Assembly (NCBI GenBank): GCA_902521355.1
Contig: CABYRT010000005.1
Span: 35,716-99,715, forward strand
Direction of reading: 5' to 3'
Source: an uncultured Pelagibacteraceae bacterium
GTDB taxonomy: Bacteria; Pseudomonadota; Alphaproteobacteria; Pelagibacterales; Pelagibacteraceae
DNA length: 64,000 nt
Positions 26,284 to 48,068 of the stretch are shown here, in pieces (positions within the stretch are counted from its first letter, which is position 1; the number at the start of each line of letters is the position of its first letter). A model generated the notes under the pieces. That model worked only from the letters and a program-made list of their open reading frames with translations. It was not told the DNA's origin and made no database searches. The translations under genes and the position numbers were made by a program.

Positions 26284-27081
26284 CTAATTTTTGTTGTGAA
26301 TTCTATCCATTTCTTGAAGTTCGACTTCAAGTTTGTCTAATTCTTCACCACCAGCCATCATACTAAGAAGCTTTTCTCTAGAAATATCTTTTTTTTGGAA
26401 TGTTCCCATGCTTTTTCCTCGGTTAAGTACAGTGAAACTATTACCAACAGGGTAAGCATGATGTACATTATGAGTAATTAAAATTACAGCCAATCCCTCA
26501 GACGCAGCCTTTACAATATATTTTAATACCATTGATGCTTGATGAACTCCTAAAGCAGAAGTTGGTTCATCTAAAACTAAAACTTTTGCTCCAAAATATA
26601 TAGCTCGTGATATTGCTAGGCATTGTCTTTCACCACCGGACATAGTTCCAACTGCCTGAGATGGATCTCTAACATCGATACCTATCTGTCCCATTCTATC
26701 TGCTGCTATCTTATTTGCTTTCTCCACATCAAAAGTTTTAAGGAAAGGAATACCTTTTTGAGGCTCTCTTCCCATAAAAAAATTTCTAGTAACACTCATT
26801 AAAGGAACTAATGCTAGATCTTGATAAACTGTTCCTATACCAATATCTAAAGCATCTTTGGGTGAGTCAAAAACAATATTATTATCTTCAAATATAATTT
26901 CTCCTTCATCTGGTTTATGAACACCTGCTAAAGTTTTAATTAATGTTGACTTTCCTGCTCCATTATCTCCAAGCAAACACATGATCTCACCTTTTTTTAA
27001 TCTCATAGTAACGTCTTTAAGCGCTATTACCTTCCCAAAAAACTTACTAATATTATTAAATTGAACGAGATAGTCAGACAT
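26284..27081 (-). CDS. CUT2 sugar ABC importer ATPase (FrcA/IatA-like)
   Basis: A 265-residue single-domain ABC ATPase of the fructose/inositol type (FrcA-like), in contrast to the tandem RbsA form. Walker A is GDNGAGKST near residue 38, the Q-loop YQDLALVP near 88, the signature [11 protein letters not shown], Walker [14 protein letters not shown] and switch histidine LITHNVHHA. The C-terminal tail after [11 protein letters not shown] is charged. It is last of a minus-strand operon SBP-permease-ATPase and overlaps the permease gene by one base. Adjacent iolG/iolE-like genes point to inositol or a related cyclitol or sugar as substrate; inference. Confidence 0.95.
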
Positions 27082-28208
27082 TATTTACTCTCAGTCACTT
27101 TCTTTCTGATGTAGTTATTAAACACTACAGCTATCAACATCATTGCTCCTAAGAAAACTTTAAACCAATCAGTGTCAACATCTGTATAAAATATTCCCAT
27201 AGATACAGTCCCAAATATAATTGCACCAAAAGCTGCACCTATTGCAGATCCATACCCACCTGTTAAGAGACACCCACCAACAACAGCAGCTGCAATAGCT
27301 TCTAGTTCTTTTAAAGTACCTCTCATAGTATCTGCAGAACCCGCATCTAATACTTGAATACAAGCGAAAATAGTAGAAGCGACTGCCGTACCAATAAATA
27401 GACTTATTTTTACCCTTCCAACAGGTACACCCACATTTGTTGCTCCAACCTTATCGCCTCCAGATGCGAAGATCCAATTACCGTATCTTGTTTTCATCAA
27501 TATCCATGTTGCAAACAATGTTAATGCAATAAACCAAATAACTGATGGAGGTATTCCAGTTGCAAGAGGAGTTCCATCAGTTCTTAGTTCAATCAATTTT
27601 AATGATCCCAACCAAGTAAAAAGCCATTTAAAAGTATCTGTAGCAAATAACCATGCTAATGGATCATCTTCAATTAATACTCTTAGTCCTGGAACCTGAG
27701 TTCTACCAGTAATCAATCTTGTTATTGCTAATGTCAAACCTCTTAAAATAAAAAGCATTGCAAGTGTTACAATAAAAGATGGCAAACCAGTTTTTACAAC
27801 CATTATGCCATTAAAGTATCCGACCAATACTGCCATAGCGAAAGCAAAAACTATGCTCATCCATAGTGGCCAACCCCAGTAAATTGCAGGAATTGCGATA
27901 CAAATTCCAGCAAAGCCAATCATTGATCCAATTGACAAATCAAATTCACCGCCAATCATTAACATCGCTGCTGCTATTGCTATAATTCCTAAATTAGCTG
28001 AAACGTCGAGGAAATTAAGCATTCCATAGGCACTAAACATACCAGTATCGCCAGCTACAATTCCAAAAAATATAAATACAAGTATTGAGCCACCTAATGC
28101 ACCTAGCTCAGGCCTATTCAATAAAACTCTTAGTGGTGATATTTTTTTTAGACGTTCGTCTTCATTAAGACTACTTTTTGATGAAATACTTTTTGATTTT
28201 AATGACAT
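27081..28208 (-). CDS. CUT2 sugar ABC importer permease (FrcC/IatP-like)
   Basis: A 375-residue permease with a charged cytoplasmic N-terminal tail of about 40 residues, then roughly ten helices. Family blocks: [23 protein letters not shown] (the CUT2 motif), [39 protein letters not shown] and [20 protein letters not shown]. It forms the homodimeric channel of the importer. The binding-protein gene lies upstream, separated by 56 bases holding a strong hairpin terminator, so permease and ATPase are probably made in lower amounts. It is one base into the ATPase gene. Substrate as for its operon partners. Confidence 0.95.
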
Positions 28209-28222
28209 TTAAATTTTGAAAA

Positions 28223-28253
28223 AAGGCCTGACTATTAAATTTAGTCAGGCCTT
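28223..28253 (-). terminator. Hairpin between binding-protein and permease genes
   Basis: AAGGCCTGACTA and TAGTCAGGCCTT form a perfect 12-bp stem with a 7-base loop, followed on the minus strand by TTTT, in the gap after the solute-binding-protein gene. It looks like an intrinsic terminator acting as an attenuator and 3'-end stabiliser, so the binding protein is made in excess over the membrane parts. Confidence 0.88.
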
Positions 28254-28264
28254 AAATATAGATT

Positions 28265-29188
28265 TTATCTATAACCTTGAGCTGCCCATTTAATTACTTT
28301 AGCAGCATTATCAGGAGTAACAAATCCAGGTCCAGTCATAACTACACCAGCAGGCATTGTTCCCCATCTCATGTACTGAGCAAATATAGCTATAGGCAAA
28401 TAACCTTGTAGATATTGTTGTTGGTCAATTAAAAACTCTACTTTACCTGCAGCAGCAGCTTTTAACATGTTAGGTGACATATCAAATGTTCCTAATTTAA
28501 CATTTCCAACTTTACCAGCAGCTTCTAAAGCTTTTAGTGCTGCTTCACCAGATAAACCAGCTCCTAAAGTTAGAATAGTGTCATATCCACCACCTAATTT
28601 TGCAGCAACAGCTTTTTGAATTTCAGTTGGGTCATTTGATGTTCCAAGAATATCAACAGATCCACCAAAACCTTTTTTGAAACCTGCACATCTTCTATCA
28701 AGCGCTACGTTTCCAACTTCGTGGTTAACGCATAAAGCTTTTTTTCCTCCAGCAGCTTTCATTTTTTGTCCGCCACCAACACCAGCTTCAAATTCAGTTT
28801 GACCTACGTGTGCACTAATTCCTAATGATGCATAGTCATCCGAACCAGAGTTCATAGAAACTACTGGTATACCAGCAGCTATTGCTGCTTTAACAGATTT
28901 TCCTAATGCAGCTGCATCAGGTAAAGTAATTACAATACCTTTTGGTTTTTGTGATACAGCGTTATCTATTAGTTTTGCCATTTCAACCATGTCAAAAGTT
29001 CCAGGTGCAGTGTATTTGCAAGATACTCCCATATCTTTACAAGCAGCATCAACTCCATTTTTAGCTACTGACCAAAAAGGGTCATTAGCTTGTCCATGTG
29101 AAACAACAATTATATCAGTTGCTAATGCTGATACAGACATCATTGCCCATGCAGCAACAGCTAATATAAAGTTCTTTATTGTTTTCAT
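28265..29188 (-). CDS. Periplasmic sugar-binding protein (CUT2, inositol-like)
   Basis: A 307-residue periplasmic-binding-protein type 1 (RbsB fold). Signal peptide MKTIKNFILAVAAWAMMSVSALA precedes the mature start near TDIIVVSHGQANDPFW. Sugar-binding residues are typical in the NDPFWSV loop, VVSMNSGSDD and the LGTFDMSPN region. It is the first gene of a SBP-permease-ATPase operon and the most highly G+C-biased (Ala/Gly-rich) protein of this neighbourhood, as often seen for abundant periplasmic proteins. Just upstream lies iolG-like dehydrogenase on the same strand. A hairpin follows the stop. Substrate inferred, not shown, to be myo-inositol or a similar polyol. Confidence 0.95.
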   Translation of the reverse strand: MKTIKNFILAVAAWAMMSVSALATDIIVVSHGQANDPFWSVAKNGVDAACKDMGVSCKYTAPGTFDMVEMAKLIDNAVSQKPKGIVITLPDAAALGKSVKAAIAAGIPVVSMNSGSDDYASLGISAHVGQTEFEAGVGGGQKMKAAGGKKALCVNHEVGNVALDRRCAGFKKGFGGSVDILGTSNDPTEIQKAVAAKLGGGYDTILTLGAGLSGEAALKALEAAGKVGNVKLGTFDMSPNMLKAAAAGKVEFLIDQQQYLQGYLPIAIFAQYMRWGTMPAGVVMTGPGFVTPDNAAKVIKWAAQGYR

Positions 29189-29208
29189 TTTTAATTTCCT
29201 CTCTTAAA

Positions 29209-29293: not shown

Positions 29294-30307
29294 TTAATAT
29301 TTTATTTTTTCAAACTTTTTTGATTTTAATGACTGGATAGCACTCTCAGCAATTTGTATTGAAATCTTTCCATCAATAAAACCACTTTTAGGTCTTAAAT
29401 TCGATCTGAATAATTTAGCAAGATCATTTAACTGTTCTTTGTATGCCTGGTCGTATCTTTCTATAAAAAAATGTTTAAAGCTTGATCGTGCATTCGTACT
29501 TTTATTAGAATACAAACTAATCTCATTTTCTTTGATATTATCAGAAATAATCATTCCTTTGCTTCCAAAAAGCTCTACTCTTTGATCATATCCAAAACTA
29601 CAATGTCTAGAATTACTAATAATACATTGAACACCATTTTTTGTTTTCAAAATTGCTGTAGCAAGCTCGAAATCTTTAAGTTTATTGAAGTATTTATTAG
29701 AAATATTGCTCCCTGTGGCAAATATAGAAACAAATTCATCTTTACCCGCATAATACCTTGCTAGATCGAAATCATGGATCATCATATCTTTAAAAATACC
29801 ACCTGAGGCTTTTAAATAATTTACAGATGGAGCAGCCGGATCTCTGCTAGTAATAATAATTTTCTCTAGTTTTCCTATCTTGCCTTTTATTAAATTATTT
29901 TTTAGAGAACTATGACCTGGATCATATCTTCTGTTAAATCCAATTTGAATTTTATGATTAAATTTATTTATTTTTTTTTCGTAATTTTGAATTTTTTTTA
30001 AATTTAAATCTAAAGGTTTTTCACAAAATACTGTTTTGTTACTTTTTATACTTTCATATATAAATTTAAGATGAGTTGATGTAGTGGAAGAGATAAAAAT
30101 ACAATCAATTTTTTTATCTTTATATGCTATTTGAGGATTTTCAATATTTTGACAATTTAGATTTTTTGAAACTTTTTTTGCAAGTTTTCTATTAACATCG
30201 AAAATATATTTAAGATTAAAATTTTTATTATTTATTAAATTATTTGCATGCATTAGTCCTATTCTTCCCAAACCGAATAATGCTACGTTAATTAAATTTT
30301 TACCCAT
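29294..30307 (-). CDS. Gfo/Idh/MocA dehydrogenase, IolG-like
   Basis: A 337-residue NAD(P)-dependent oxidoreductase, best fit inositol 2-dehydrogenase (IolG) or a close relative, which oxidises myo-inositol to 2-keto-inositol (scyllo-inosose). The Rossmann motif is FGLGRIG near residue 13, CEKPLDL with the catalytic lysine near 96, GFNRRYDP near 123, and IHDFDLARYY near 178 with the conserved Asp/His pair of the GFO C-terminal domain. Length matches IolG. It lies at the 3' end of a two-gene unit with another Gfo/Idh gene (16-base overlap) and precedes the importer genes. Exact sugar specificity is uncertain. Confidence 0.85.
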   Translation of the reverse strand: MGKNLINVALFGLGRIGLMHANNLINNKNFNLKYIFDVNRKLAKKVSKNLNCQNIENPQIAYKDKKIDCIFISSTTSTHLKFIYESIKSNKTVFCEKPLDLNLKKIQNYEKKINKFNHKIQIGFNRRYDPGHSSLKNNLIKGKIGKLEKIIITSRDPAAPSVNYLKASGGIFKDMMIHDFDLARYYAGKDEFVSIFATGSNISNKYFNKLKDFELATAILKTKNGVQCIISNSRHCSFGYDQRVELFGSKGMIISDNIKENEISLYSNKSTNARSSFKHFFIERYDQAYKEQLNDLAKLFRSNLRPKSGFIDGKISIQIAESAIQSLKSKKFEKIKY

Positions 30308-31437
30308 TGTTTTTTTAATGATGATTTCTTACATGCATCAATGAATTTAGCAGTCTCCAAACCCTCTTCTTCGTTAGGAAAATAAAATCTTTTTTTTGTA
30401 TTCGTTTTTAAATATTCAGCAAATTCCTTATATATATTTGCAAAAGCATCTAAATATCCTTCAGGGTGACCAAATTTTACTCTAGAAAATTTTTTTGAAA
30501 AATTTGCTTTTGTATATCCTCTTTCTAAAAACTTTACTGCTCCTTTGCTTGGATTGAATTTTAAATAATTTGGATCATTTTGAACCCATTCTAAACTTCC
30601 TTTAGATCCATATACCCTAATTCTTAAACCATAAACACCACCTTTAGCTGTTACACATGTCCACACAATTCCTTTAGCACCATTGTTAAAATTAACAAAA
30701 ACTTGTGCGTTATTATCCATATTAACGTCTTTCGAATATTTGCTTACATCGGCTATAAGTTTTTCTCCTTTAAGGCCTGTAATATAAATTGCTAAATGAT
30801 ATGCGTGCGATCCTATTTCATTGAGAACTGCTGATACACCGACAATTTTTTTATCAACTTTCCATTTAAAAACCTTTTTTGAATTTGTTTTTGAAATTTT
30901 ATTACCATCTGTCCAATCCTGAATATATTCAACGTTGATATATTCAACTTTTCCAATTTTTCCTTTTTCCACTAAATTTTTTGCTTCTCTTACCATTGGA
31001 TAAGATGAATAGTTATGAGTCAGTGCATATTTAATTTTTTTGTTATTCTTTATCGCTTTATATAGTTTTTTTCCCTGATTAAGATTTCCAGCAAATGGTT
31101 TGTCTGAAATTACATGTATATTTTTTTTTATAAAATTCTCTGCAATAATTTGATGACTTGATGGTGGAGTCATTATTGCTACAACATTAATACCATCTTT
31201 TCTTTTCGCTTCTTTTACAGACATCTCCTTGTAATTTGAATAACATCTAGATTTATCTAAACCTATACTTTGTCCAAATTTCCTAGATTTATCAACACTT
31301 CTAGAAAATACCCCTGCAACGATTTCGTATTTGTCATCATATCTAGATGAAATTCTATGAACATGCCCGATCCAAGATCCAGGTCCGCCTCCAACAATTC
31401 CAAGTTTAAATTTTTTAGGTTTAATTTTTTGAAGCAT
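30292..31437 (-). CDS. Gfo/Idh/MocA family oxidoreductase
   Basis: A 381-residue paralogue with an N-terminal Rossmann domain (IVGGGPGSWIGHVH) and a GFO C-terminal domain. The EKP motif is changed to SDKPFAG, keeping the catalytic lysine, and LTHNYSSYPMVREA corresponds to the substrate-side helix. The GGGPGSWIG form with a 'gxWIGxxHR' block is that of long Gfo/Idh members found in inositol and sugar loci. The reaction could be oxidation or epimerisation of an inositol isomer, but the substrate is unknown. Start ATG 31437 lies 26 bases from the divergent iolE-like start. It overlaps the IolG-like gene by 16 bases. Confidence 0.85.
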   Translation of the reverse strand: MLQKIKPKKFKLGIVGGGPGSWIGHVHRISSRYDDKYEIVAGVFSRSVDKSRKFGQSIGLDKSRCYSNYKEMSVKEAKRKDGINVVAIMTPPSSHQIIAENFIKKNIHVISDKPFAGNLNQGKKLYKAIKNNKKIKYALTHNYSSYPMVREAKNLVEKGKIGKVEYINVEYIQDWTDGNKISKTNSKKVFKWKVDKKIVGVSAVLNEIGSHAYHLAIYITGLKGEKLIADVSKYSKDVNMDNNAQVFVNFNNGAKGIVWTCVTAKGGVYGLRIRVYGSKGSLEWVQNDPNYLKFNPSKGAVKFLERGYTKANFSKKFSRVKFGHPEGYLDAFANIYKEFAEYLKTNTKKRFYFPNEEEGLETAKFIDACKKSSLKKQWVKI

Positions 31438-31463: not shown

Positions 31464-32366
31464 ATGTCAGTAAAATTAGGTATAGCCCCAATAGCTTGGA
31501 GCAATGATGATATGCCCGAGCTTGGTGGTGATACTCCGCTTGAACAATGTCTTTCCGAAGCTAGTGAATCAGGATTTAAAGGAATAGAATCTGGGGGAAA
31601 ATTTCCAAAAACATCAAAAGAATTAATTCCTATATTAAATAAATATAATTTAAAATTATGTTCAGGTTGGTATGGAGCAAATTTAAGAAAAAATACTTTT
31701 GAAGAGGAAAAATCAAAAATTCAAAATCAATTGAAACTATTTCAAGATTGTGAAGCACCCTGCATGGTTTTTGCCGAAGTTTATGGTTCTATTCAAAGCG
31801 ATCCAAATATAAATTTATCTAAAAGACCTAGAATGGATTTAGACGAGTCTAAAAAATATTATAAAAAAATTTCAGAAATGGGAAAATATCTAGAGGATCA
31901 AAATATGCCTCTTGCTTACCATCATCATATGGGAACTTGCATTGAAAGTGAAGAAGATACAAGAAGATTATTAGAAAATACAGATGGTAGTGTCAAACTA
32001 ACTTTAGATACTGGACACATGTTATTTGCAAAAGGGGATAGTTTGAAAATTTATAAAGAATTTAAAGAAAGAATAATTCATATACATTGCAAAGATATGA
32101 GAAAAAATGTTTTAGATAATTCATTAAATCACGATTATAGTTTTAGACAGGCTTTTTTAGAAGGAGCCTTCACTGTTCCAGGAGATGGTTGTATTGATTA
32201 CAAGCCCTTTTTTGACTTGTTAAAAGAACAAAATTATTCTGGATGGTTAGTTGTAGAAGCGGAGCAAGATCCCGCAAAAGCAAATCCTTTTGAATATGCT
32301 AAAATTGGATACAAATATCTAGTTGAAACTTTAAAAAGTGCAAATTTAGAAATCGAAAATAATTAG
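31464..32366 (+). CDS. iolE: Myo-inosose-2 dehydratase-like protein
   Basis: A 300-residue xylose-isomerase-like TIM-barrel protein matching IolE, which dehydrates 2-keto-myo-inositol to 3D-(3,5/4)-trihydroxycyclohexane-1,2-dione. The start VKLGIAPIAWSNDDMPELGG is the IolE signature; metal and catalytic residues appear in LAYHHHMGT, LTLDTGHMLF, IIHIHCKDMR and VVEAEQDP. Length equals the family. It is divergent from the Gfo/Idh unit and its stop abuts the convergent pilin-like stop with no spacer. Together with IolG-like and IolD-like genes it supplies the first three steps of inositol catabolism. Confidence 0.92.
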   Translation: MSVKLGIAPIAWSNDDMPELGGDTPLEQCLSEASESGFKGIESGGKFPKTSKELIPILNKYNLKLCSGWYGANLRKNTFEEEKSKIQNQLKLFQDCEAPCMVFAEVYGSIQSDPNINLSKRPRMDLDESKKYYKKISEMGKYLEDQNMPLAYHHHMGTCIESEEDTRRLLENTDGSVKLTLDTGHMLFAKGDSLKIYKEFKERIIHIHCKDMRKNVLDNSLNHDYSFRQAFLEGAFTVPGDGCIDYKPFFDLLKEQNYSGWLVVEAEQDPAKANPFEYAKIGYKYLVETLKSANLEIENN

Positions 32367-32867
32367 CTATCTATATAAAGAAGTTAATTCATTATTACCA
32401 GCAGCCACACATGGAGATTTAAAACAAGTACCAACTATCCATTCTGATCCTGGTTCTGCTAGAAAATTTGATGACATTATAAAAATAACACCCATTTCTA
32501 CTGACTGACCGGCTTTTCCTTCTGCTTTTATTCTTGGGTCGGGGTCTGTTTTAACTTTATTGTCGTCTGAAAATGGATTTTCAATCTTAAGATTATCATT
32601 TATATGATTAACAACTTTTTCAGCTATCCATTCAGCATTACATGGATCACCCCAAACAGTAATTTTCCCCTCATCATTATTTCCGCAATTATTAATTTCG
32701 CCATTAATAAAATCGACAACTTTTTTATGATTTTCTTTTACTAAATTTGCGCGAGCTTCAACTTCAGGCCTTGTACTCGCTGTCCATATCAACATTCCTA
32801 CAACATAAACAGCCGATATAATGATAAGAAACTCTAACAATCCAAAATTTTTTAATTTTAAGCTCAT
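32367..32867 (-). CDS. Pilin-like protein of unknown function
   Basis: A 166-residue protein with a short basic N-terminus and one hydrophobic helix (about residues 9-29), then an extracytoplasmic domain with four cysteines. The segment KNFGLLEFLIIISAVYVVG aligns with the type IV prepilin start KGFTLIELLIVI: Phe at +1 and Glu at +5 are kept, but Gly at -1 is Asn, so processing by prepilin peptidase is doubtful. The C-terminus has GTCFKSPC, like a pilin disulfide loop. The start overlaps the hydroxyacid dehydrogenase stop by four bases (ATGA), so it is cotranscribed with catabolic genes. It may instead be a plain membrane-anchored protein. Confidence 0.6.
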   Translation of the reverse strand: MSLKLKNFGLLEFLIIISAVYVVGMLIWTASTRPEVEARANLVKENHKKVVDFINGEINNCGNNDEGKITVWGDPCNAEWIAEKVVNHINDNLKIENPFSDDNKVKTDPDPRIKAEGKAGQSVEMGVIFIMSSNFLAEPGSEWIVGTCFKSPCVAAGNNELTSLYR

Positions 32868-33823
32868 GAGATTTTTACTATTTTTGACTTTTCCAATTTA
32901 TTATCAAAAAAATCAATAATATTTTGGACTGTTTCAATACCCATTCTAGACAAACATTCTTCGGTAAATACTGCTGAATGAGGGCTTAAAAATGCTTTCT
33001 CATTTTTTAGCAATGGATTATCTAAAGATGGAGGCTCCTTTTCAAAAACATCAAGCCCTGCACCAAAAATTAAATCTTCGTTTAATGCCTTATTAAGATC
33101 TTCCTCTTTAATAATACCACCTCTTGCAGCATTAATTAAAATACAATTTTTTTTCATTTTTTTTATCATTTCATAATTGATTAAATGTTTTGTATTTTCG
33201 TTTAGAGGCATATGAATTGAAATTGCATCCATTTTATTTAAACTTTCATTTAAATCATTAATTTTAGTACCACCAACTTTTTTAATCTCCTCTTCGCTGA
33301 CAAAAGGATCATAAACAAAAATGTTCATTTCTAAACCCTTACATTTTTTAAGTAAGCATTTTCCAATACGACCAAAACCTGCAATTAAGATACTTTTATT
33401 CCATAACTCAATTGTTTTAGGAAGCTTAGTTCTATCACTGAACTTTCCAGTTTTTACAGTCTCATTGTACATATTATTTCTTTTTGCAATGCTGAATAGC
33501 ATGAATAAAACATGTTCTGCTACAGCTTGAGCATTTGCTGTAGCTGTTATTGTTAATGTGATATTGTTTTGCTTGGTTGCTTTAAGATCTATATTGTCAT
33601 AGCCGACACCATGTCTAGATATCACTTTTAAATTCTTAGCTGAGTCTATAATTTCTTTTGACAATTTAGATGTTCTAATACTTATTCCATCACAGTCTTT
33701 TATTTTATCTTTCAAAAATTCTGTATCTGTATTGTCTACAACTTCAAATTCAAAATTTTTATTTCCTTTTAGTAAATCAATACCATGATTATGTATCGAT
33801 CCTATTATTAAGATTTTTTTCAT
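32864..33823 (-). CDS. D-isomer-specific 2-hydroxyacid dehydrogenase
   Basis: A 319-residue NAD-dependent 2-hydroxyacid dehydrogenase (phosphoglycerate/hydroxypyruvate reductase superfamily). NAD motif GFGRIGKCLL near residue 148; catalytic residues Arg in INAARGGIIKEEDL, Glu in FEKEPP and His in LSPHSAVFTEE are intact. There is no ACT regulatory domain, so it is a catabolic-type enzyme and not SerA. It follows the HpaI-like aldolase by 24 bases and overlaps the pilin-like gene by four bases. Possible roles are hydroxypyruvate, tartronate-semialdehyde or 2-oxoacid reduction downstream of the aldolase. Confidence 0.92.
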   Translation of the reverse strand: MKKILIIGSIHNHGIDLLKGNKNFEFEVVDNTDTEFLKDKIKDCDGISIRTSKLSKEIIDSAKNLKVISRHGVGYDNIDLKATKQNNITLTITATANAQAVAEHVLFMLFSIAKRNNMYNETVKTGKFSDRTKLPKTIELWNKSILIAGFGRIGKCLLKKCKGLEMNIFVYDPFVSEEEIKKVGGTKINDLNESLNKMDAISIHMPLNENTKHLINYEMIKKMKKNCILINAARGGIIKEEDLNKALNEDLIFGAGLDVFEKEPPSLDNPLLKNEKAFLSPHSAVFTEECLSRMGIETVQNIIDFFDNKLEKSKIVKIS

Positions 33824-33847: not shown

Positions 33848-34639
33848 TTAATAGGCTTTAGATAATTCTGATTTCACTGTGCCTTTTAAATTTTCAACTG
33901 TATTTTTCGCACCAGCACTTATAAATCTAGAGTCTGCTCCAACTGTTACAAATTGAAAACCTTTTTCAATCATTTTTTTTGCATAGTCAGTACTTCCGTT
34001 ATGAATTCCAGCAAATATATTGTTTTTTTTTGCATGCTCTAATATTCTAAGTATTTCTGAATAAGCTTTAGTATCCTCACCTTTGTCAAAACTAGGCTTT
34101 TCTCCTATAGCCAAACTTAAATCAGCAGGCCCTATGTAGATACCATCAAGGCCTGGGGTACTCATAATTTCATCAAGATTTTCTAAAGCTTCTTTAGTTT
34201 CAATCATAGCCATTTTTAATATTTCATCGTTTGCATGATCTCCATAATCAGGCCCTCCATAGATTAACCCTCTCATTGGACCGAAACTTCTATATCCATC
34301 TGGTGGATATTTACATGCTTGAACAAATCTTTCTGCTTCTTTTCGATTACTTACCATTGGACAAATGATTCCATAACATCCAGCATCTAAAATTTTCATA
34401 ATTTGACCAGGTTCATTCCAATTAACTCTTGCCAAAGGCACGACTTCAGTCGCTGAAATCACTTGCATCATTGGCATTGCATTCGTGTAATCAACGAGCC
34501 CGTGTTGCATATCAATTGTTAATGAGTCCCATCCTTGTTGAGCCATTGTTTCAGCCGAAACAGTACTTGGAATTTGTAACCAACCATTGATTACAGCTTT
34601 GCCATTTTTAATTATTTCTTTGGCTTTATTTTTTCTCAT
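33848..34639 (-). CDS. HpcH/HpaI-family class II aldolase
   Basis: A 263-residue metal-dependent aldolase of the HpaI/GarL family, which cleaves 4-hydroxy-2-oxo acids to pyruvate plus an aldehyde. Seen: NGWLQIPSTVSAETMAQQGWDSLTIDMQHG with the conserved DxQHG histidine, PLARVNWNEPGQIMKILDAG, and the GIYIGPADLSLAIG loop; the metal-binding Glu is in AMIETKEALEN. Normal length. It is four bases after the aldehyde dehydrogenase and 24 before the hydroxyacid dehydrogenase. In this operon it would take the place of IolJ. Substrate not determined. Confidence 0.92.
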   Translation of the reverse strand: MRKNKAKEIIKNGKAVINGWLQIPSTVSAETMAQQGWDSLTIDMQHGLVDYTNAMPMMQVISATEVVPLARVNWNEPGQIMKILDAGCYGIICPMVSNRKEAERFVQACKYPPDGYRSFGPMRGLIYGGPDYGDHANDEILKMAMIETKEALENLDEIMSTPGLDGIYIGPADLSLAIGEKPSFDKGEDTKAYSEILRILEHAKKNNIFAGIHNGSTDYAKKMIEKGFQFVTVGADSRFISAGAKNTVENLKGTVKSELSKAY

Positions 34640-34643: not shown

Positions 34644-36086
34644 TCAGGTTTTTAGACCCATATGGGTATACTTTATATTAAGGTAATCTTTAATAGCCAT
34701 AGATCCACCTTCACGACCATAACCGGTTTGTTTTATTCCACCGAATGGAGCTTCAGCAACTGCAACTGCAGCTGTATTTACTGCTACACAACCGGTTTCC
34801 ATCATCTCTGATGCTCTATTAGCTTTGTCCATTGAGTTTGTATATAAATAGCTACAAAGTCCCAGGTCATTATTATTTGCTCTCTCTACTACTTCGTCAA
34901 AATCCTTGAAAGTTAAAACGGGCACTAGGGGACCAAAAGGTTCTTCTTTCATAATTGTAAAATTGTCCTGCACTTCATCAAATACGGTTGGTTCAAAATA
35001 ATAACCTTTATTAAATCCTGAAGGTCTACCTCCACCTAAAACAACTTTTGCCCCTTCACTCTTTGTAGTTTCGACTAATTTTTCAATTTCCTCCAAACGA
35101 TTTGCTGTTGTTAAAGGTCCTAAGTCAGTGCCTTCATCCATACCATTTCCAATTTTTAATTTTTTTGCTCTATCTACGAAAGCATTTATAAATTCTTCTT
35201 TTCTTGTTTCTTGAATGTAAAACCTATTTGGGGATATACAAACTTGACCATTGTTACGAAATTTTGCTGTTATTGCCATATCTGCAACTTTATTCATGTC
35301 AACATCGTCAAATACTATAAATGGAGAATGACCACTTAATTCCATTGTAACTCTTTGAACTTTATCTGCAGCTTTTTTAAGTATTAATTTTCCAACACGT
35401 GTTGAGCCAGTTATAGAAACTTTTTTTATTATATCTGATTCAAGTAATTCATTTGATATTTCAGCTGGGTCTCCAGATAATAAATTGACTACTCCATCAG
35501 GAACTCCAGCATCTTTACAAATATTTACAAGTTCCATAACTGCTCCAGGCGTAATCACATCTGGCTTACAAATAACTGAACAACCAGCAGCCAGTGCAGT
35601 TGAAATTTTTCTAGATGCTAAAACTATAGGAAAATTCCATGGCACAAGTGCTGCTACAACACCTACTGGCTGATAGTAAACATGAACTCTTGTTTCTGGA
35701 AATCTACTTTGTAATGTTTCACCATAAATTCTCTTAGTTTCTTCTGCATTCCATTCAAATATATCTGCTCCACCACCAACTTCTCCAATTGCTTCTTTAA
35801 GAGGTTTTCCAACTTCAAGTGTAAGCCATTTAGCCAATACATCTTTTCTTTCACGCATCAAATCTGCAATTTTTCTTATTACATAAGACCTCTGCCATGG
35901 AGTGGTATTTTTCCAAGTTTCGAGTCCTTTCTCTGCTGATTTTAATGCTTTTTGAACGTCAACAGAGGACGCTTTTGATGCTTCTCCTAAAACTTCTTCT
36001 GTTGCTGGATTGATAACTTTATAAGTTTCTTTTTTTTCTGCTTGTTGCCACTGACCTTCAATGAATTGACCAAAATTGCTATACAT
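34644..36086 (-). CDS. NAD(P)-dependent aldehyde dehydrogenase (GabD-like)
   Basis: A 480-residue aldehyde dehydrogenase of the succinate-semialdehyde/lactaldehyde type. Motifs: VPWNFPIVLASRKI, the general-base Glu in VTMELSGHSP (usually MELGG), the catalytic Cys in NNGQVCISPNRF and the EEPFGPLVPV segment near residue 386. It lacks the CoA-acylating hallmarks of methylmalonate-semialdehyde dehydrogenase (IolA), so it probably makes a free acid. It heads a minus-strand operon with HpaI-like aldolase, hydroxyacid dehydrogenase and the pilin-like gene, and is divergent from iolD across 52 bases. Likely substrate: a semialdehyde in this sugar/cyclitol pathway. Confidence 0.93.
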   Translation of the reverse strand: MYSNFGQFIEGQWQQAEKKETYKVINPATEEVLGEASKASSVDVQKALKSAEKGLETWKNTTPWQRSYVIRKIADLMRERKDVLAKWLTLEVGKPLKEAIGEVGGGADIFEWNAEETKRIYGETLQSRFPETRVHVYYQPVGVVAALVPWNFPIVLASRKISTALAAGCSVICKPDVITPGAVMELVNICKDAGVPDGVVNLLSGDPAEISNELLESDIIKKVSITGSTRVGKLILKKAADKVQRVTMELSGHSPFIVFDDVDMNKVADMAITAKFRNNGQVCISPNRFYIQETRKEEFINAFVDRAKKLKIGNGMDEGTDLGPLTTANRLEEIEKLVETTKSEGAKVVLGGGRPSGFNKGYYFEPTVFDEVQDNFTIMKEEPFGPLVPVLTFKDFDEVVERANNNDLGLCSYLYTNSMDKANRASEMMETGCVAVNTAAVAVAEAPFGGIKQTGYGREGGSMAIKDYLNIKYTHMGLKT

Positions 36087-37988: not shown

Positions 37989-39143
37989 ATGAATAAAGTT
38001 TTTAAGGTTGGTCTCATAGGATGTGGCCATATCGCAGAAACATATTTTAGAGGACACCAATATTTTAATAATTTCAAAATCGTTGCTTGTGCAGATATTA
38101 ATCAAAAAGCAGCTGAAAAATGTGCAAAATTATACAACATCAAATCAATGACTGTTAATGAAATACTAAAAGATAAAGATATAGAGGTAATTTTAAATTT
38201 AACAATTCCTCAATCACATTATTCTGTATCAAAAAAAGTATTAAATGCTGGTAAGCATGTTTATTCAGAAAAACCATTAGCAACATACTTTCAAAAAGGA
38301 AAAGAATTAGTAGCTTTGGCAAAACAAAAAAAATTATACATTGGTAATGCGCCGGATACTTTTCTTGGAGGAGGTGGACAAAAAGCAAAGGAGTTAATTG
38401 ACTCTGATTTGATTGGACAAATTAAACTTGGAAATGCAATATTTGCATTTCCTGGCGTTGAAAACTTTCATCCAAAACCAGAATCTTGGTATAAAAAAGA
38501 GGGAGGACCAGTAATAGATATGGGTCCTTATTTTTTTACAACGCTTGTTAATCTTTTAGGGCCAGCTAAACAGGTGCAAGGAAGAACATTAACGGCGTTT
38601 AAAAGAAGAAATTATAGAGCAGGTCCAAATAAAGGAAAAACATTTAAGGTTGAAACACCAACTACTTATTTAGCAACAATTCAATTTCATAATGAAGCAA
38701 TTATTCAAGTTACTCTATCCTTTGATGTTATTAATCATCAAAGAAATCATATGGAACTTTATGGAACTAAAGGATCAATTATCGTTCCTGATCCGAACAT
38801 GTTTGGTGGATCTGTTTATATTTCTGTTACAGAGGGTGGTCGTTGGGGTGAACATAAAACTGATAAAATGCATTTAGGAAAAATAAATATTACATCTGCA
38901 AGTGGTAGATCCAATGAGTCACCAACAAATGCTAACTATAGAAGTGTTGGAATGTCTGAGATGTTATATTCAATCGAAAAAAAGAAAAAACATCGATGTT
39001 CAGGAGAGCTATCTCTTCATGTTTTAGATATAATTGAGTCTACTATGAAAGCAGCAACAACTGGAGTACCTCAAAAAATAAAAACTAAATGTGAAAAGCC
39101 AAAAAGATTTACAGAAGAAGAAGTAAAAAAAATTCTCTTATAG
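37989..39143 (+). CDS. Gfo/Idh/MocA family oxidoreductase
   Basis: A 384-residue NAD(P)-dependent dehydrogenase. Rossmann motif GLIGCGHIAETY near residue 8, YSEKPLATYF with the catalytic lysine near 97, and the C-terminal GFO fold with WYKKEGGPVIDMGPYFFT, whose Asp/Tyr replace the usual Asp-His pair. This is the third Gfo/Idh enzyme in the island and not close to the other two, so it probably handles a different sugar, cyclitol or its 3-keto form. It lies between iolD (gap 5) and a 2-hydroxyacid dehydrogenase (gap 3) in the same operon as an ABC importer. Substrate unknown. Confidence 0.9.
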   Translation: MNKVFKVGLIGCGHIAETYFRGHQYFNNFKIVACADINQKAAEKCAKLYNIKSMTVNEILKDKDIEVILNLTIPQSHYSVSKKVLNAGKHVYSEKPLATYFQKGKELVALAKQKKLYIGNAPDTFLGGGGQKAKELIDSDLIGQIKLGNAIFAFPGVENFHPKPESWYKKEGGPVIDMGPYFFTTLVNLLGPAKQVQGRTLTAFKRRNYRAGPNKGKTFKVETPTTYLATIQFHNEAIIQVTLSFDVINHQRNHMELYGTKGSIIVPDPNMFGGSVYISVTEGGRWGEHKTDKMHLGKINITSASGRSNESPTNANYRSVGMSEMLYSIEKKKKHRCSGELSLHVLDIIESTMKAATTGVPQKIKTKCEKPKRFTEEEVKKILL

Positions 39144-40938: not shown

Positions 40939-40939
40939 A

Positions 40940-42051: not shown

Positions 42052-42060
42052 GGGAAATTT

Positions 42061-42993: not shown

Positions 42994-43014
42994 TCATTAG
43001 TATATAACATTTAA

Positions 43015-43048: not shown

Positions 43049-43066
43049 ATGTAATATAATCTTTTA

Positions 43067-43528
43067 ATGTTAATAAATATTAACCCTGTTTTAAGCCCTG
43101 ATTTACTTTTTAATTTAAGATCCATGGGTCATGGTGAGAAAATTATTCTTGCTGATGCTAATTTTCCTGCAAACTCTATGAACAAAAATGTAATCCGATT
43201 AGATGGGGTAAATATTAAAAGTGCAGCAAATGCAATTTTATCTGTTTTTCCATTAGATAGTTTTATCGTATCACAAGGGGGCTCACCTGCACTTAGAATG
43301 GAAGTAGATGATAAACCAGAGGAACTAACTGAAACTCATAAAGAATTTATTGAAGCAGTAAAAAATAATTCTGGTCCTCAATGGAAAGTTGGATCAATTT
43401 CAAGACAAAATTTTTATGAAGAAGCAAAAAAAGCATATTGTATTGTAACCACTACAGATGCTCGACCTTTTGGATGTTTTGTTATTACTAAAGGAGTTAT
43501 TCTTCCTGACGGTAAAGTCTGGTCTTAA
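43067..43528 (+). CDS. RbsD/FucU-family sugar mutarotase
   Basis: A 153-residue mutarotase of the RbsD/FucU family, interconverting ring forms of ribose or fucose after uptake. Seen: VLSPDLLFNLRSMGHGEKIILADANFPA with the catalytic His in MGHGE, and the C-terminal TTTDARPFGCFVITKGVI end with the conserved TxDxRPxGCxxIxKG motif, which points to FucU more than RbsD. It starts right after the terminator; a TATAAT at 43055-43060 lies six bases before the ATG. Followed four bases later by ribokinase. Which sugar is used is not settled. Confidence 0.9.
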   Translation: MLININPVLSPDLLFNLRSMGHGEKIILADANFPANSMNKNVIRLDGVNIKSAANAILSVFPLDSFIVSQGGSPALRMEVDDKPEELTETHKEFIEAVKNNSGPQWKVGSISRQNFYEEAKKAYCIVTTTDARPFGCFVITKGVILPDGKVWS

Positions 43529-43532
43529 TTAA

Positions 43533-44447
43533 ATGAAATCTATATGTGTATTTGGAGTATTTGTTGCAGACTTATGTTTTATTGGTGAAAAAATTCCTGA
43601 AGTAGGGCAAACTATTTTAGGAACAAAACACTTAATAGGACCTGGTGGAAAAGGATCTAACCAAGCCATTGCTGCAGCAAGACTTGGCGGAAATATAAGT
43701 TTTATCACAAAAATAGGTGATGATAATAATGCTGAAATGGCACTAAATTTATATAAATCCTCTGGAGTAAATACCGATTATATTATCAAAGATAAAAATC
43801 AATCAACTGGCGTTGCTGGTATTATGATTAATGCTAATACAGGTGATAATGCAATAAACATCATACCAGGCGCTGCTGGCACTTTAAATAGTTCTGATAT
43901 AGATAATAATTTAAAAGCAATCGAGAAGTCAGATATATTCTTAACACAATTAGAAACACCATATGATGTTACAAGCTATGCTTTACAAAAAGCTAAAGAT
44001 ACTGGTTCAATTACAATATTAAATCCAGCTCCTGCTTCGAAAATATCTGAGAATGACTTTAAAAATATAGACTATTTTACACCAAATGAAACTGAAGCTA
44101 GTTTTTATTTAGAAAAAAAAATAGAAACAAAATCTGAAATAGAAAATGCAGCTAAAGAATTTTTAAAAAAAGGAATAAAAAATATCTTAATAACTCTAGG
44201 TTCTAAAGGAGTTTATTTTTCAAATGGAACTGAAAGCCATTTTGTAGACGCCCATGAATTAAAAGAGGATGTAAAAGATACTACTGGAGCAGGTGATGCT
44301 TTTAATGGAGCTTTTAGTGTAGCATTAGCTAAATCATTAAAAATTGTTGATGCATTAGAATTTTCTAATAAAGTTGCTGGTATTTCTACAACTAAAGAAG
44401 GAGCCGCGAATTCCATGCCAACATATGAAGAGGTCGAGGTTTACTAA
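43533..44447 (+). CDS. rbsK: Ribokinase (PfkB family)
   Basis: A 304-residue PfkB-family sugar kinase resembling ribokinase, phosphorylating a sugar at the 5-position. PfkB signature 1 is GPGGKGSNQAIAAARLGG near residue 38; the anion-hole/ATP motif DTTGAGDAFNGAF with the catalytic Asp lies near 252. NPAPASKI and FTPNETEA are typical RbsK segments. Length is normal. It follows FucU/RbsD by four bases and precedes an aldo/keto reductase by two. An IolC-type role (5-dehydro-2-deoxygluconokinase) cannot be excluded, but the sequence fits ribokinase better. Confidence 0.92.
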   Translation: MKSICVFGVFVADLCFIGEKIPEVGQTILGTKHLIGPGGKGSNQAIAAARLGGNISFITKIGDDNNAEMALNLYKSSGVNTDYIIKDKNQSTGVAGIMINANTGDNAINIIPGAAGTLNSSDIDNNLKAIEKSDIFLTQLETPYDVTSYALQKAKDTGSITILNPAPASKISENDFKNIDYFTPNETEASFYLEKKIETKSEIENAAKEFLKKGIKNILITLGSKGVYFSNGTESHFVDAHELKEDVKDTTGAGDAFNGAFSVALAKSLKIVDALEFSNKVAGISTTKEGAANSMPTYEEVEVY

Positions 44448-44449
44448 AT

Positions 44450-45478
44450 ATGAAATATAACGCTGATAATAAAAGATATTCAGAGATGTTATATAGAACT
44501 TGTGGCGATAGTGGAGTTAAATTACCACTAATAAGCCTTGGGCTCTGGCATAACTTTGGAGGTAAAGTTCCACTTTCTAATATTAAAAAAATATTATTCT
44601 ATGCTTTTGATAAAGGCATCACTCATTTTGATTTGGCAAACAATTATGGCCCACCTTACGGTAGTACAGAAAGTAATTTTGGAAAAATAATAAGCAAAGA
44701 TTTAAAAAAATACAGAGATGAACTGATTATATCATCAAAAGCTGGTTATGATATGTGGGAAGGACCTTATGGAGAATGGGGGTCAAAAAAACATATTATC
44801 GCAAGTTGTGATCAAAGTTTAAAAAGAATGAAAATTGATTACTTTGATATATTTTACTCACATAGATTTGATCCAAATACACCTTTAGAAGAAACAGCAG
44901 ATGCATTAGAGAGTATTTATAAATCGGGAAAAGCTTTATATGTTGGTATATCGTCTTATTCTTCCAAAAAGACGAACCAAATTTACAAAATTCTAAAATC
45001 AAGAAATATTAAATTGCTTATTCACCAGCCTTCATATTCTTTAATTAATAGATGGATTGAAAAAGATTTAACTAAAACTATAAAAAAACTTAAAATTGGA
45101 TGTATTGCCTTTTCTCCTCTTGCTCAAGGAATGCTATCAGACAAATATTTAAAAAAGATACCTAGAGTTTCAAGAGCGAGTGATGTTACATCTTATTTAG
45201 ATAAATCTTTAATAACAAAAAAAAACTTAAAGATAGTTTCAGATTTAAATAAGATTGCGAATAAAAGAGGTCAATCTTTATCTCAAATGGCAATTTCTTG
45301 GGTCTTGTCAAATAATTATGTAACATCTGCTCTAATCGGAGTTAGAAATATAAACCAGTTAAAAGAAAATATAGAAAGTCTAAACAAACTTAATTTTACA
45401 CCTTCTGAAATGAAAATAATTAATAAAACCGCTAAAGATGGTAATATTAACATCTGGAAGCAGTCAAGCTCTTACTAA
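44450..45478 (+). CDS. Aldo/keto reductase (YghZ-like)
   Basis: A 342-residue aldo/keto reductase with the (beta/alpha)8 fold, near YghZ (L-glyceraldehyde-3-phosphate reductase) and voltage-gated channel beta subunits. The catalytic tetrad is visible: Asp in THFDLANNYG, Tyr in the same NYGPPYG loop, Lys in SSKAGYDMW and His in YSHRFDP. The NADPH-binding C-terminal region has LIGVRNINQLKENIESL. It is packed between ribokinase and a ROK kinase gene with two- and one-base gaps. It may reduce or oxidise the sugar or its aldehyde product; substrate unknown. Confidence 0.93.
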   Translation: MKYNADNKRYSEMLYRTCGDSGVKLPLISLGLWHNFGGKVPLSNIKKILFYAFDKGITHFDLANNYGPPYGSTESNFGKIISKDLKKYRDELIISSKAGYDMWEGPYGEWGSKKHIIASCDQSLKRMKIDYFDIFYSHRFDPNTPLEETADALESIYKSGKALYVGISSYSSKKTNQIYKILKSRNIKLLIHQPSYSLINRWIEKDLTKTIKKLKIGCIAFSPLAQGMLSDKYLKKIPRVSRASDVTSYLDKSLITKKNLKIVSDLNKIANKRGQSLSQMAISWVLSNNYVTSALIGVRNINQLKENIESLNKLNFTPSEMKIINKTAKDGNINIWKQSSSY

Positions 45479-45479
45479 A

Positions 45480-46355
45480 ATGAAAATTGGAATAGATATT
45501 GGGGCAACAAAAATTGAAAGCGTCATCTTAAAAAAAAATGGTGATGAAATTGAGAGATCAAGGATCCCTTGCCCAAAGAGTTATAAAAAAATAATAAAAG
45601 ATGTTAGTAAAATAGTTTTTTCACTAGATCGGAAGTATAAAAAAAAATTTCAAGTAGGCGTGTGTCATCCCGGATCTATAGATTATAAAACTGGACTACT
45701 TAAAAATTCAGTAAATGCCAAACAATTAAATAATAAAAAATTAAACATAGATTTATCAAAAGCTTTAAAAAGAAATATAAAATGTGAAAATGATGCAAAT
45801 TGTTTTGCATTATCTGAAGCAATGGATGGAGCTGCAAAAAATTATAATGTTGTTTTCGGAATAATTATTGGATCAGGCACTGGAGGTGGAATAGTTATTA
45901 ATAAGAAAATCTTAAAAGGTGCAAATTATATTTCTGGAGAGTGGGGACATCTTCCTCTACCAATTTTTGGAAATCTAAACGATAAAAAATATATTAAAAA
46001 AAAGATATCACTTATGCAAATACAAAAGTTTACCTCAGGAAAAGGTTTGGAAAAACTTTATCATAAAAAAATTACTGCGAGAGAAATATTTAATAAATCT
46101 GATAAGTTTACAAAATCAATTTTTATTAAACATTTTAAAATACGGTTGGCTAGAGCACTTGTTAACTTAATTTATACAATTGATCCTGATGTATTTGTAT
46201 TTGGAGGTGGATTATCTAATGAAATCTCTTCATTAAATGAATTAAAGAAAATGGTTACAAAAAATATGGAAATTAAACATATAAATACGAAATTTTTAAA
46301 GGCTAAGTATGGAGATGCAAGTGGAGTAAGAGGAGCGGCACGGTTGAATTATTAA
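45480..46355 (+). CDS. ROK-family sugar kinase lacking zinc motif
   Basis: A 291-residue ROK kinase starting at ATG 45480, just after the upstream stop; the track's start at 45438 is inside that gene. It has the phosphate-1 loop MKIGIDIGATKIES, the catalytic GHPG-like CHPGSIDYKTG, ENDANCFALSEA with the catalytic Asp, GSGTGGGIVIN and GEWGHLPLP with the sugar-binding Glu-His. The ROK zinc motif CxCGxxGCxE that normally follows is replaced by SLMQIQKFTSGKG: no cysteines remain there. Likely a fructo- or glucokinase by family; substrate unknown. One base later the next gene begins. Confidence 0.9.
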   Translation: MKIGIDIGATKIESVILKKNGDEIERSRIPCPKSYKKIIKDVSKIVFSLDRKYKKKFQVGVCHPGSIDYKTGLLKNSVNAKQLNNKKLNIDLSKALKRNIKCENDANCFALSEAMDGAAKNYNVVFGIIIGSGTGGGIVINKKILKGANYISGEWGHLPLPIFGNLNDKKYIKKKISLMQIQKFTSGKGLEKLYHKKITAREIFNKSDKFTKSIFIKHFKIRLARALVNLIYTIDPDVFVFGGGLSNEISSLNELKKMVTKNMEIKHINTKFLKAKYGDASGVRGAARLNY

Positions 46356-46356
46356 T

Positions 46357-47211
46357 ATGACAAAAATCGGTTTTATAGGAATTGGATTAATGGGTGCTCC
46401 TATGGCAAAAAATCTTCTAAAATCTAATTATCAAGTCAAAGTTTTTAATAGAACTAAAAAAAAAGCTGATAAATTAAAAAATTATGGCGCAAAAGTATGT
46501 AATTCATTAAGGGAAGTTGTTTCTGACCAGGATTTAATAATTACTATGTTATCTGATGATAAGGCTATAAAAAAAATATATTCTAACTTAGAATTTTTAA
46601 AAAATTTAAAAGCAGGATCTACAGTTATAGATATGAGTTCTGCAAATCCTAAAACAGCAATTAATTTATCAAAATTATTAAAAAAATATAAAGTTAATTT
46701 TTTAGACGCGCCAGTTTCTGGAGGCACAAATGGCGCAGAAAATGCTCAGCTGGCCATAATGGTTGGCGGAGATAAGAAAGTTTTTTCTAAAAATTTAAAT
46801 ATAATAAAGAAATTAGGCAATCCTGTTTTAGTTGGAAAAAATTCTGCAGGTCAAATAGCAAAATTAGCTAATCAAATAATAGTAGGAATTACAATTGGAT
46901 CTGTTGCAGAGGCTATTAAATTAGCACAAAAAAATAATGTAAATCCAATAAATATTCTCAAAGCATTAAAAGGGGGGTGGGCTGACAGTAAAGTTTTACA
47001 AACTCATGGATTAAGAATGATCAAAAAAGATTTTAAACCAAGAGGAAAAAATTTTTCTCAATTAAAAGATATGAACAACATCCTTGATTGTGCAAAAAAT
47101 AAAAAGCTAGAATTACCTTTATCTAAAATAGTTAAAAAAATGTATAATAATCTCGTTAAAAAAGGATTGGGTAACTATGATCATAGTTCGTTATACAAAA
47201 GCTATAAATAA
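46357..47211 (+). CDS. Beta-hydroxyacid dehydrogenase (HIBADH family)
   Basis: A 284-residue NAD(P)-dependent dehydrogenase of the 3-hydroxyisobutyrate/tartronate-semialdehyde reductase family. Rossmann motif FIGIGLMGAPMAKNL near the N-terminus; LDAPVSGGTNGAENAQLAIMVGG near residue 118; catalytic lysine in GQIAKLANQII near 170. All key residues are present. Plausible substrates are tartronate semialdehyde (linking to glycerate), malonate semialdehyde or a sugar acid. It follows the ROK kinase by one base and precedes a FAH-type gene by 14 bases. Confidence 0.92.
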   Translation: MTKIGFIGIGLMGAPMAKNLLKSNYQVKVFNRTKKKADKLKNYGAKVCNSLREVVSDQDLIITMLSDDKAIKKIYSNLEFLKNLKAGSTVIDMSSANPKTAINLSKLLKKYKVNFLDAPVSGGTNGAENAQLAIMVGGDKKVFSKNLNIIKKLGNPVLVGKNSAGQIAKLANQIIVGITIGSVAEAIKLAQKNNVNPINILKALKGGWADSKVLQTHGLRMIKKDFKPRGKNFSQLKDMNNILDCAKNKKLELPLSKIVKKMYNNLVKKGLGNYDHSSLYKSYK

Positions 47212-47225
47212 TTATTGGAGATAAA

Positions 47226-48068
47226 ATGAAATTACTAAGAGTGGGAGAAAAAAGTCAAGAAAAGCCAGCTATATTAGATAAAGATGGAAAGTTGAGAGAT
47301 ATATCCAAACATATAAATGATTTAGATCCAACTCATTTAAATTTTGAAACAATTGAAAAAATTAAACAAATTGATTTATCATCATTGCCTGAGATTTCAA
47401 ATAATACAAGGATTGGTTCATGCATAACTAAACCAGGAAAATTTATTGCAATTGGATTAAATTTTTCTGACCATGCAGCGGAAACTGGAGCAAAACCACC
47501 AACAGAACCAATTGTGTTTATGAAAGCCAGTAGTTCAATCAATGGACCAAATGATGATATTGAAATTACAAGCTATTCAAAAAAACTAGATTGGGAAGTT
47601 GAGCTAGGTTTAGTTATAGGAAAAAATGCTAAAAATATCCCAGAGAAAAATTCACAAGATTATATCTTAGGTTATTGTTTAGTGAATGATGTAAGTGAAA
47701 GAGAGTGGCAAATAGAAAAAATGGGACAGTGGGTAAAAGGTAAGTCGCACGATACATTTGGTCCTATTGGTCCATACCTTGTGACCAAAGATGAGATTAA
47801 TGATGTAAACAACCTAAACATGGAATTAGATTTAAATGGTGAACGAATGCAAACGGGTAATACAAAAACAATGATTTTTAATGTAGATCATATTGTTTCA
47901 TATGTTAGTCGATATATGTCCCTTCAACCAGGAGATATCATTACCACAGGAACACCCCCAGGAGTTGGAATGGGAATGAAGCCACAAAAATTTTTAAAAG
48001 CAGGTGATGAAATGAGGCTTTCAATTGAACTTCTTGGTGAACAAAAATCAAAAGTAGTAGCAATTTAA
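47226..48068 (+). CDS. Fumarylacetoacetate hydrolase family protein
   Basis: A 280-residue FAH-family enzyme of the type that hydrolyses 2,4-diketo-3-deoxy sugar acids (fuconate/rhamnonate pathways) or isomerises similar diketo acids. FIAIGLNFSDHAAETG near residue 75, then the metal-binding Glu/Asp in WEVELGLVIG and NDVSEREWQIEK, and the C-terminal PGDIITTGTPPGVGMG. A ribosome site GGAG precedes the ATG. It is the last gene of the sugar block. Together with FucU and the hydroxyacid dehydrogenase it hints at a non-phosphorylating deoxy-sugar-acid route; the dehydratase for such a route is not seen here. Confidence 0.92.
   Translation: MKLLRVGEKSQEKPAILDKDGKLRDISKHINDLDPTHLNFETIEKIKQIDLSSLPEISNNTRIGSCITKPGKFIAIGLNFSDHAAETGAKPPTEPIVFMKASSSINGPNDDIEITSYSKKLDWEVELGLVIGKNAKNIPEKNSQDYILGYCLVNDVSEREWQIEKMGQWVKGKSHDTFGPIGPYLVTKDEINDVNNLNMELDLNGERMQTGNTKTMIFNVDHIVSYVSRYMSLQPGDIITTGTPPGVGMGMKPQKFLKAGDEMRLSIELLGEQKSKVVAI

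Follow-up and report, generated by a model that had tools for sequence, protein, structure and literature searches.

The upper inositol pathway without iolB and iolC in SAR11: an HpaI-type aldolase unit as a candidate lower half

Described pathways and the SAR11 cyclitol unit

The breakdown of inositol is usually described as one pathway via IolB, IolC and IolJ, and its canonical form (IolG-IolE-IolD-IolB-IolC-IolJ-IolA) is that of Bacillus subtilis and Salmonella. Here we examine a cyclitol unit of an uncultured SAR11 bacterium (Pelagibacteraceae; assembly GCA_902521355.1, 1.16 Mb, 85% complete), located in a stretch of 64,000 nucleotides of its contig 5 (CABYRT010000005.1, positions 35,716 to 99,715), hereafter the window. 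IolG, IolE, IolD, an MmsA/IolA encoded elsewhere in the genome and, as proposed below, malonate semialdehyde are common to both systems, whereas iolB and iolC are missing from the SAR11 genomes tested, where an aldolase of the HpcH/HpaI family (HpaI) is proposed to cleave an unphosphorylated 2-keto diacid in place of IolJ. Judging from gene content and conservation, it is highly probable that the lower half has been replaced by one based on HpaI.

Parts of the unit resemble other described systems. The oxidative uronate pathway (uronate dehydrogenase, lactonase, aldarate, 2-keto acid) shares with it the oxidation of a uronate at C1 to a diacid, and a plasmid-borne variant of the unit carries enzymes like its dehydrogenase (Udh) and lactonase; here, however, the substrate would be the 5-deoxy compound released by IolD, and no dehydratase was found. 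The glucarate/galactarate pathway (GudD/GarD-GarL-GarR-GarK) likewise has a C6 2-keto diacid cleaved by an aldolase of the HpaI family, and the SAR11 HpaI is nearest to the HpaIs of such operons, but the SAR11 unit lacks GudD, GarD and GarK and is linked to iolD. By both sequence and fold, the nearest solved relative of the aldolase is SwHKA (~41% identity) of Sphingomonas wittichii (PDB 6r62), which was crystallised with hydroxypyruvate and accepts pyruvate and hydroxypyruvate as donors (PMC10099721). The scyllo-inositol/L-glucose dehydrogenase LgdA (PDB 5ya8, PMC5969746) is related to a Gfo/Idh/MocA enzyme of the plasmid-type units, whereas the SAR11 unit contains no close LgdA-type gene. 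A survey of iol genes accepted as clusters those with three or more of iolB, C, D and E (PMC9430895), so that a unit with iolD and iolE alone would escape it. No iolB-free inositol route or SAR11 inositol catabolism was found described in the open-access literature, most subscription journals lying outside the search, and a study of carbon metabolism in SAR11 names other sugars for the same genera and leaves inositol unmentioned.

The unit comprises the following features:

26284..29188, minus strand: CUT2 importer with a rhizopine/inositol-type binding protein (ATPase 26284-27081, permease 27081-28208, binding protein 28265-29188)
29294..30307, minus strand: iolG, inositol 2-dehydrogenase (TIGR04380, 354 bits, one under the cut-off of 355)
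30292..31437, minus strand: gfo2, second Gfo/Idh/MocA dehydrogenase (Pfam PF01408/PF02894/PF22725; nearest solved chain 3v5n)
31464..32366, plus strand: iolE, inosose dehydratase (TIGR04379, 395 bits, cut-off 290)
32367..32867, minus strand: hyp166, 166-amino-acid protein, apparently membrane-anchored, no Pfam match; last gene of the aldh-hpaI-hadh1 operon
32864..33823, minus strand: hadh1, D-2-hydroxyacid dehydrogenase (PF02826/PF00389)
33848..34639, minus strand: hpaI, HpcH/HpaI class II aldolase (PF03328)
34644..36086, minus strand: aldh, aldehyde dehydrogenase (ALDH) resembling succinate semialdehyde dehydrogenase (SSADH) (TIGR01780, 496 bits, cut-off 646)
36139..37983, plus strand: iolD, trihydroxycyclohexanedione hydrolase (TIGR04377, 799 bits, cut-off 715)
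37989..39143, plus strand: gfo3, Gfo/Idh/MocA dehydrogenase adjoining iolD

The minus-strand operon runs aldh-hpaI-hadh1-hyp166, the first three genes lying 4 and 24 bases apart and the last two overlapping, and it diverges from iolD-gfo3 with 52 bases between them. The CUT2 importer, the binding protein of which scores 320 bits against NCBIfam NF052284 (rhizopine binding protein; cut-off 420, not reached), adjoins iolG/iolE in many SAR11 loci. NCBIfam and Pfam models recovered all genes named in an earlier, preliminary description of this DNA, at the coordinates given there, and both of the CUT2 importers that it reported were confirmed. When named genomes were scanned with the window's HpaI, all matches lay in Pelagibacteraceae single-cell genomes and MAGs, many of them 98-100% identical, which identifies the source as SAR11.

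Conservation of the unit in Pelagibacteraceae

Genes scoring over the curated iolD cut-off were present in 139 of 347 Pelagibacteraceae genomes, closed genomes among them. Neither iolB (PF04962) nor iolC was found in the genome to which the window belongs. With TIGR04378 at a lenient threshold (E<=1e-5), iolB was found in none of 80 iolD-bearing Pelagibacteraceae genomes, 68 of which are at least 90% complete, while the same search was positive in the controls (Bacillus, Caulobacter, Corynebacterium) and detected, at 152 bits, the divergent IolB of a closed sister genome (G375), the iolD of which is 69% identical. None of 45 iolD-bearing genomes tested contained an iolC over cut-off, the best match reaching 110 bits, the level of a ribokinase, compared with ~296 for the G375 IolC. 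Absence of iolB from the SAR11 clade is thus established, as is that of iolC in the genomes tested, and what the preliminary description had reported for the window extends to the genome and the clade. IolJ was not found in the loci examined (tblastn with the G375 IolJ; no genome-wide iolJ search was made). A CoA-acylating MmsA/IolA, on the other hand, is encoded in 43 of the 45 genomes, so the final step of the pathway is available; the earlier statement that such an enzyme is missing holds for the window but not for the genome, which encodes it at G000:C1:47569-49002 (705 bits, cut-off 448.5).

HpaI closely tracks iolD. Using an identity of >60% to define orthologues, and counting genomes with an iolD fragment as iolD-bearing, both genes were present in 138 genomes, iolD only in 5, HpaI only in 10 and neither in 194, which corresponds to 138/143 genomes with iolD and 10/204 without. 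Two of the ten HpaI-only genomes (G324 and G338) carry a pseudogene interrupted by stops, which we note as a case of joint decay with iolD, and several of the remaining mismatches sit close to contig ends. The divergent core aldh-hpaI/iolD-gfo3 was intact in 20/20 loci from four genera (g1-g4) and in 40/40 loci with full flanks from another set that partly overlaps the first, i.e., in all 60 loci examined. Longer flanks recovered hadh1, iolE, iolG and the ROK kinase (see below) in most genomes where a 20-kb stretch had lost them; hyp166 stays beside hadh1 in all four genera, and gfo2 is not universal (30/40 full-flank loci). The preliminary description had proposed that the ALDH-HpaI unit substitutes for iolB and iolC, naming as counter-evidence iolB, iolC and iolJ elsewhere in the genome or HpaI and the ALDH occurring regularly without their iol partners. 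Of the former, iolB and iolC were not found; HpaI is seldom seen without iolD; and co-occurrence, synteny and the absence of iolB and iolC together support the proposal.

Several neighbouring features are less closely tied to the unit. Downstream of gfo3 the window contains:

40189-42993: second CUT2 importer, ribose/allose-like
45438..46355, plus strand: ROK sugar kinase (PF00480), recurring near the unit in SAR11 with 46-54% identity

Together with a FucU/RbsD mutarotase, a ribokinase (above cut-off), an aldo-keto reductase, a tartronate-semialdehyde-reductase-like enzyme and FAH-family enzymes, these occupy positions 40189-48068, a part of the window that looks like a separate sugar module outside the cyclitol pathway. 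In loci of genus g2 (L037, L045), gfo3 and the ROK kinase are separated by an inserted open reading frame (ORF) of 419 amino acids resembling glycoside hydrolases and by a CUT1 sugar importer, possibly for the use of glucosyl- or mannosylglycerate. A phytanoyl-CoA-dioxygenase-like protein was recognised by eye near the SAR11 unit in L041 (3075-4064), with ORFs of the same length in L043, L048 and L050, and such a protein is annotated near the unit on Shinella and Pantoea plasmids (L205, L212, L215); its role might be to demethylate O-methylated inositols.

Similar units outside SAR11 and the origin of HpaI

Of 55 further iolD-bearing Alphaproteobacteria, a canonical iolB is present in 22, only a relative below cut-off in 15 and neither in 18. 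Two of the loci are ordered hadh-hpaI-aldh-iolG/iolD-iolE (L149) and gfo-hadh-hpaI-iolG/iolD (L142, in a genome without iolB). Among plasmid records, all 23 whose iolD is closest to that of L149 (62-78% identity; the next record has 54%) carry HpaI 1.7-12 kb away. Where annotated (Paracoccus, Qingshengfaniella, Rhizobium, Acidiphilium, Shinella, Klebsiella, Pantoea), the order is ALDH-HpaI-hydroxyacid dehydrogenase, accompanied by iolD, iolE, iolG and usually another Gfo dehydrogenase. Outside SAR11, HpaI is constantly accompanied by a 2-hydroxyacid dehydrogenase of the hadh1 family.

On plasmids, the SAR11 iolD is matched best (54-55%) in Shinella zoogloeoides and Rhizobium sp. NXC24 (L284, L285), in which iolD is followed by an extended short-chain dehydrogenase/reductase (SDR), a hydroxyacid dehydrogenase, HpaI, a CUT2 importer, a Gfo enzyme resembling LgdA and levoglucosan dehydrogenase, an IolE relative, an SMP-30/gluconolactonase and iolG. 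Among solved structures, the SDR comes closest to uronate dehydrogenases, whose SSN and RIG motifs it retains. Beside hadh-hpaI, these plasmids thus have a Udh-like SDR and a gluconolactonase in place of the ALDH.

Other occurrences are mentioned as separate observations. Four genomes (G617, G424, G448 and G690; L140, L141, L143 and L144) have an iolD of the HpaI-linked plasmid clade and no iolB, and within the stretch examined around iolD no HpaI was found. Large Klebsiella plasmids from clinical and mastitis samples (NZ_CP042531.1, NZ_CP092401.1), one of them typed as conjugative, harbour an inositol-like unit, an unrecognised carbon-use cargo.

The HpaI of the window belongs to the HpcH/HpaI superfamily, as judged from PF03328 and the retained metal and catalytic positions H46, R71, E147 and D173. 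It falls short of the model for 4-hydroxy-2-oxoheptanedioate aldolase (TIGR02311, 165 bits, cut-off 369) and of the GarL and RhmA cut-offs. Its AlphaFold model (mean predicted local distance difference test score, pLDDT, 82) gave SwHKA as best Foldseek match (template modelling score, TM, 0.83). We considered and rejected a function as rhamnonate or fuconate aldolase, as the RhmA cut-off is not reached and no partner dehydratase is present. The His at residue 213, equivalent to the donor-contacting Phe210 of SwHKA, was tried as a marker of hydroxypyruvate use and is not diagnostic, as gudD/garD-linked enzymes also have His.

In the HpaI tree the SAR11 enzymes lie near HpaIs of glucarate/galactarate operons, the enzymes of ALDH-type plasmids group with HpaIs located behind mandelate-racemase (MR)-type genes, and those of the Udh type stand apart. 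A single clade of iol-linked HpaIs was rejected by the approximately unbiased (AU) test (p = 2.5e-5), a result that the long branches in the tree caution us to read with care. On this basis we rejected a common origin of all iol-HpaI units and conclude that the association with iolD arose more than once. That one set of enzyme families has repeatedly assembled beside iolD says more about function than a single inherited cluster would.

The candidate lower half and its alternatives

The reactions that follow IolD are ones that we infer, from computed results that we regard as established: gene content, the absence of iolB and iolC, co-occurrence, synteny and repeated recruitment. After import, the textbook steps of IolG, IolE and IolD would yield 5-deoxy-D-glucuronate. 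The ALDH would then oxidise the aldehyde carbon (C1), giving the C6 diacid 5-deoxyglucarate, and hadh1 may oxidise the C2 hydroxyl of this compound to 2-keto-3,4-dihydroxyadipate, a step for which no dehydratase would be needed. HpaI could release hydroxypyruvate and malonate semialdehyde by retro-aldol cleavage, and the genome's MmsA/IolA would convert the latter into acetyl-CoA. Alternatively, hadh1 might serve in the reduction of hydroxypyruvate. On balance we favour the view that the SAR11 locus encodes a complete phosphorylation-free cyclitol pathway.

Oxidation at C1 as the step after IolD is likely, because the Udh-like SDR and lactonase of the Shinella and Rhizobium plasmids would reach in another way the outcome proposed for the ALDH; we read these plasmids as independent evidence for it, and the earlier suggestion that 5-deoxyglucuronate is oxidised to a diacid gains support from them. 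The ALDH could instead act on malonate semialdehyde, with a Gfo dehydrogenase preparing the HpaI substrate. SSADH-type enzymes use short semialdehydes, and in G375 (85% of the genome examined) a GabD-like ALDH shares an operon with gfo3, iolC (296.5 bits, cut-off 300), iolB-like (152 bits, cut-off 205) and iolJ-like genes and one of the mutarotase type. This assignment is nevertheless improbable, given the dedicated MmsA in nearly all iolD genomes tested and the replacement of the ALDH by enzymes of sugar C1 oxidation on two plasmids; moreover, the G375 ALDH is just 43% identical to that of SAR11, no closer than the plasmid ALDHs. The SAR11 enzyme is equally distant from plasmid ALDHs (41-43%) and from GabD (40-43%). 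G375 also contains hadh, and its hpaI adjoins iolG and iolE 14 kb from the iolC-iolB-iolJ operon, so it carries both lower branches, of which SAR11 retained one. Its gfo3 is a 65% orthologue of the window gene, and we keep gfo3 out of the lower half because it stands there beside iolC-iolB-iolJ; it is probably an upstream cyclitol dehydrogenase. For this reason, and because plasmid units have a different Gfo, gfo3 was dropped as first choice for the C2 oxidase.

Between the diacid and the aldolase, the preliminary description had placed a dehydration to 4-hydroxy-2-oxoadipate, cleaved by HpaI to pyruvate and malonate semialdehyde. The nearest HpaI relatives, in gudD/garD operons acting on 3-deoxy-2-keto-hexarates, and closely related HpaIs behind MR-type enzymes would agree with it, yet no dehydratase was found in any iol-HpaI cluster examined, nor GudD/GarD beside the aldolase in the SAR11 loci examined. 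Genome-wide, 10 of 39 iolD genomes lack MR/enolase dehydratases, and these ten, which are near-complete, also have no second IlvD/EDD (UxaA/GarD and UxuA types were not searched genome-wide); neither family tracks iolD. One UxaA/GarD-like ORF of 501 amino acids was seen by eye, in L046 only, and a neighbour of hpaI of ~710 amino acids in genera g2 and g4, considered as a dehydratase, reads by eye as a glycosyltransferase. The earlier scheme thus finds support in its replacement of the lower half by ALDH and HpaI but not in its dehydration, which would leave the 2-hydroxyacid dehydrogenase, the most constant partner of HpaI, without a role. As this partner is constant and no dehydratase fits, we rank oxidation at C2 with release of hydroxypyruvate, a tentative assignment that we hold at somewhat less than an even chance, above dehydration with release of pyruvate, which we consider unlikely.

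Several points weigh against the favoured scheme. The co-occurrence counts are not independent events, since the genomes are related by common ancestry. G375 combines hadh and hpaI with iolC, iolB-like and iolJ-like genes, and hadh is therefore not tied solely to the loss of iolB, nor is its link with iolD specific to that loss. Pyruvate carboxylase or ppsA near some plasmid units favours pyruvate as product, and so does the context of the closest non-SAR11 HpaIs, whose donor in glucarate/galactarate operons would be pyruvate. Finally, glycerate kinases of both main families (PF13660, GckA/TtuD-type; PF02595, GarK-type) were found in none of 69 Pelagibacteraceae genomes, so that D-glycerate formed by reduction of hydroxypyruvate would lack its ordinary exit. 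The same absence, which removes glycerate kinase as an exit for hydroxypyruvate, has also been counted in favour of dehydration; that the ROK kinase substitutes for it is only a guess.

The substrate may also be a cyclitol other than myo-inositol (O-methyl, amino or chiro), IolD then yielding a variant of 5-deoxyglucuronate and the lower half remaining unchanged. The resemblance of the binding protein to rhizopine-binding proteins, the occurrence beside some units of phytanoyl-CoA dioxygenases that may act as O-demethylases and the proximity of a Paracoccus alcaliphilus plasmid unit to an iolC could be read in this way, but the models for iolG, iolE and iolD are at or above their cut-offs (iolG one bit under) and no second iolD over cut-off was among the matches listed for the window's own genome, and we regard a main substrate other than myo-inositol as rather improbable. 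Least probable is a glucarate/galactarate sugar-acid module that merely neighbours iolD. The HpaI phylogeny would fit such a module, whereas the SAR11 loci examined contain no gudD/garD, and the tight co-occurrence, the synteny and the repeated recruitment beside iolD argue against it.

SAR11 bacteria are among the most abundant in the ocean. The conserved oxidising and carbon-splitting set found in many of them has counterparts on plasmids in unrelated bacteria, and together these suggest an as yet undescribed second inositol route. In its most specific form, a repeatedly evolved kinase-free and dehydratase-free route releasing hydroxypyruvate and malonate semialdehyde, present in a large share of Pelagibacteraceae and plasmid-borne in rhizobia, Paracoccus and Klebsiella, we advance it with reserve, as a possibility with roughly one chance in three of being right. 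If a second route of this kind exists, hundreds of genes annotated merely as aldolase, aldehyde dehydrogenase or hydroxyacid dehydrogenase would gain a function, and inositol would join the predicted carbon sources of cells on whose diet ocean carbon models centrally depend; in the hydroxypyruvate form, that product could also feed serine by transamination in SAR11, known to need glycine or serine.

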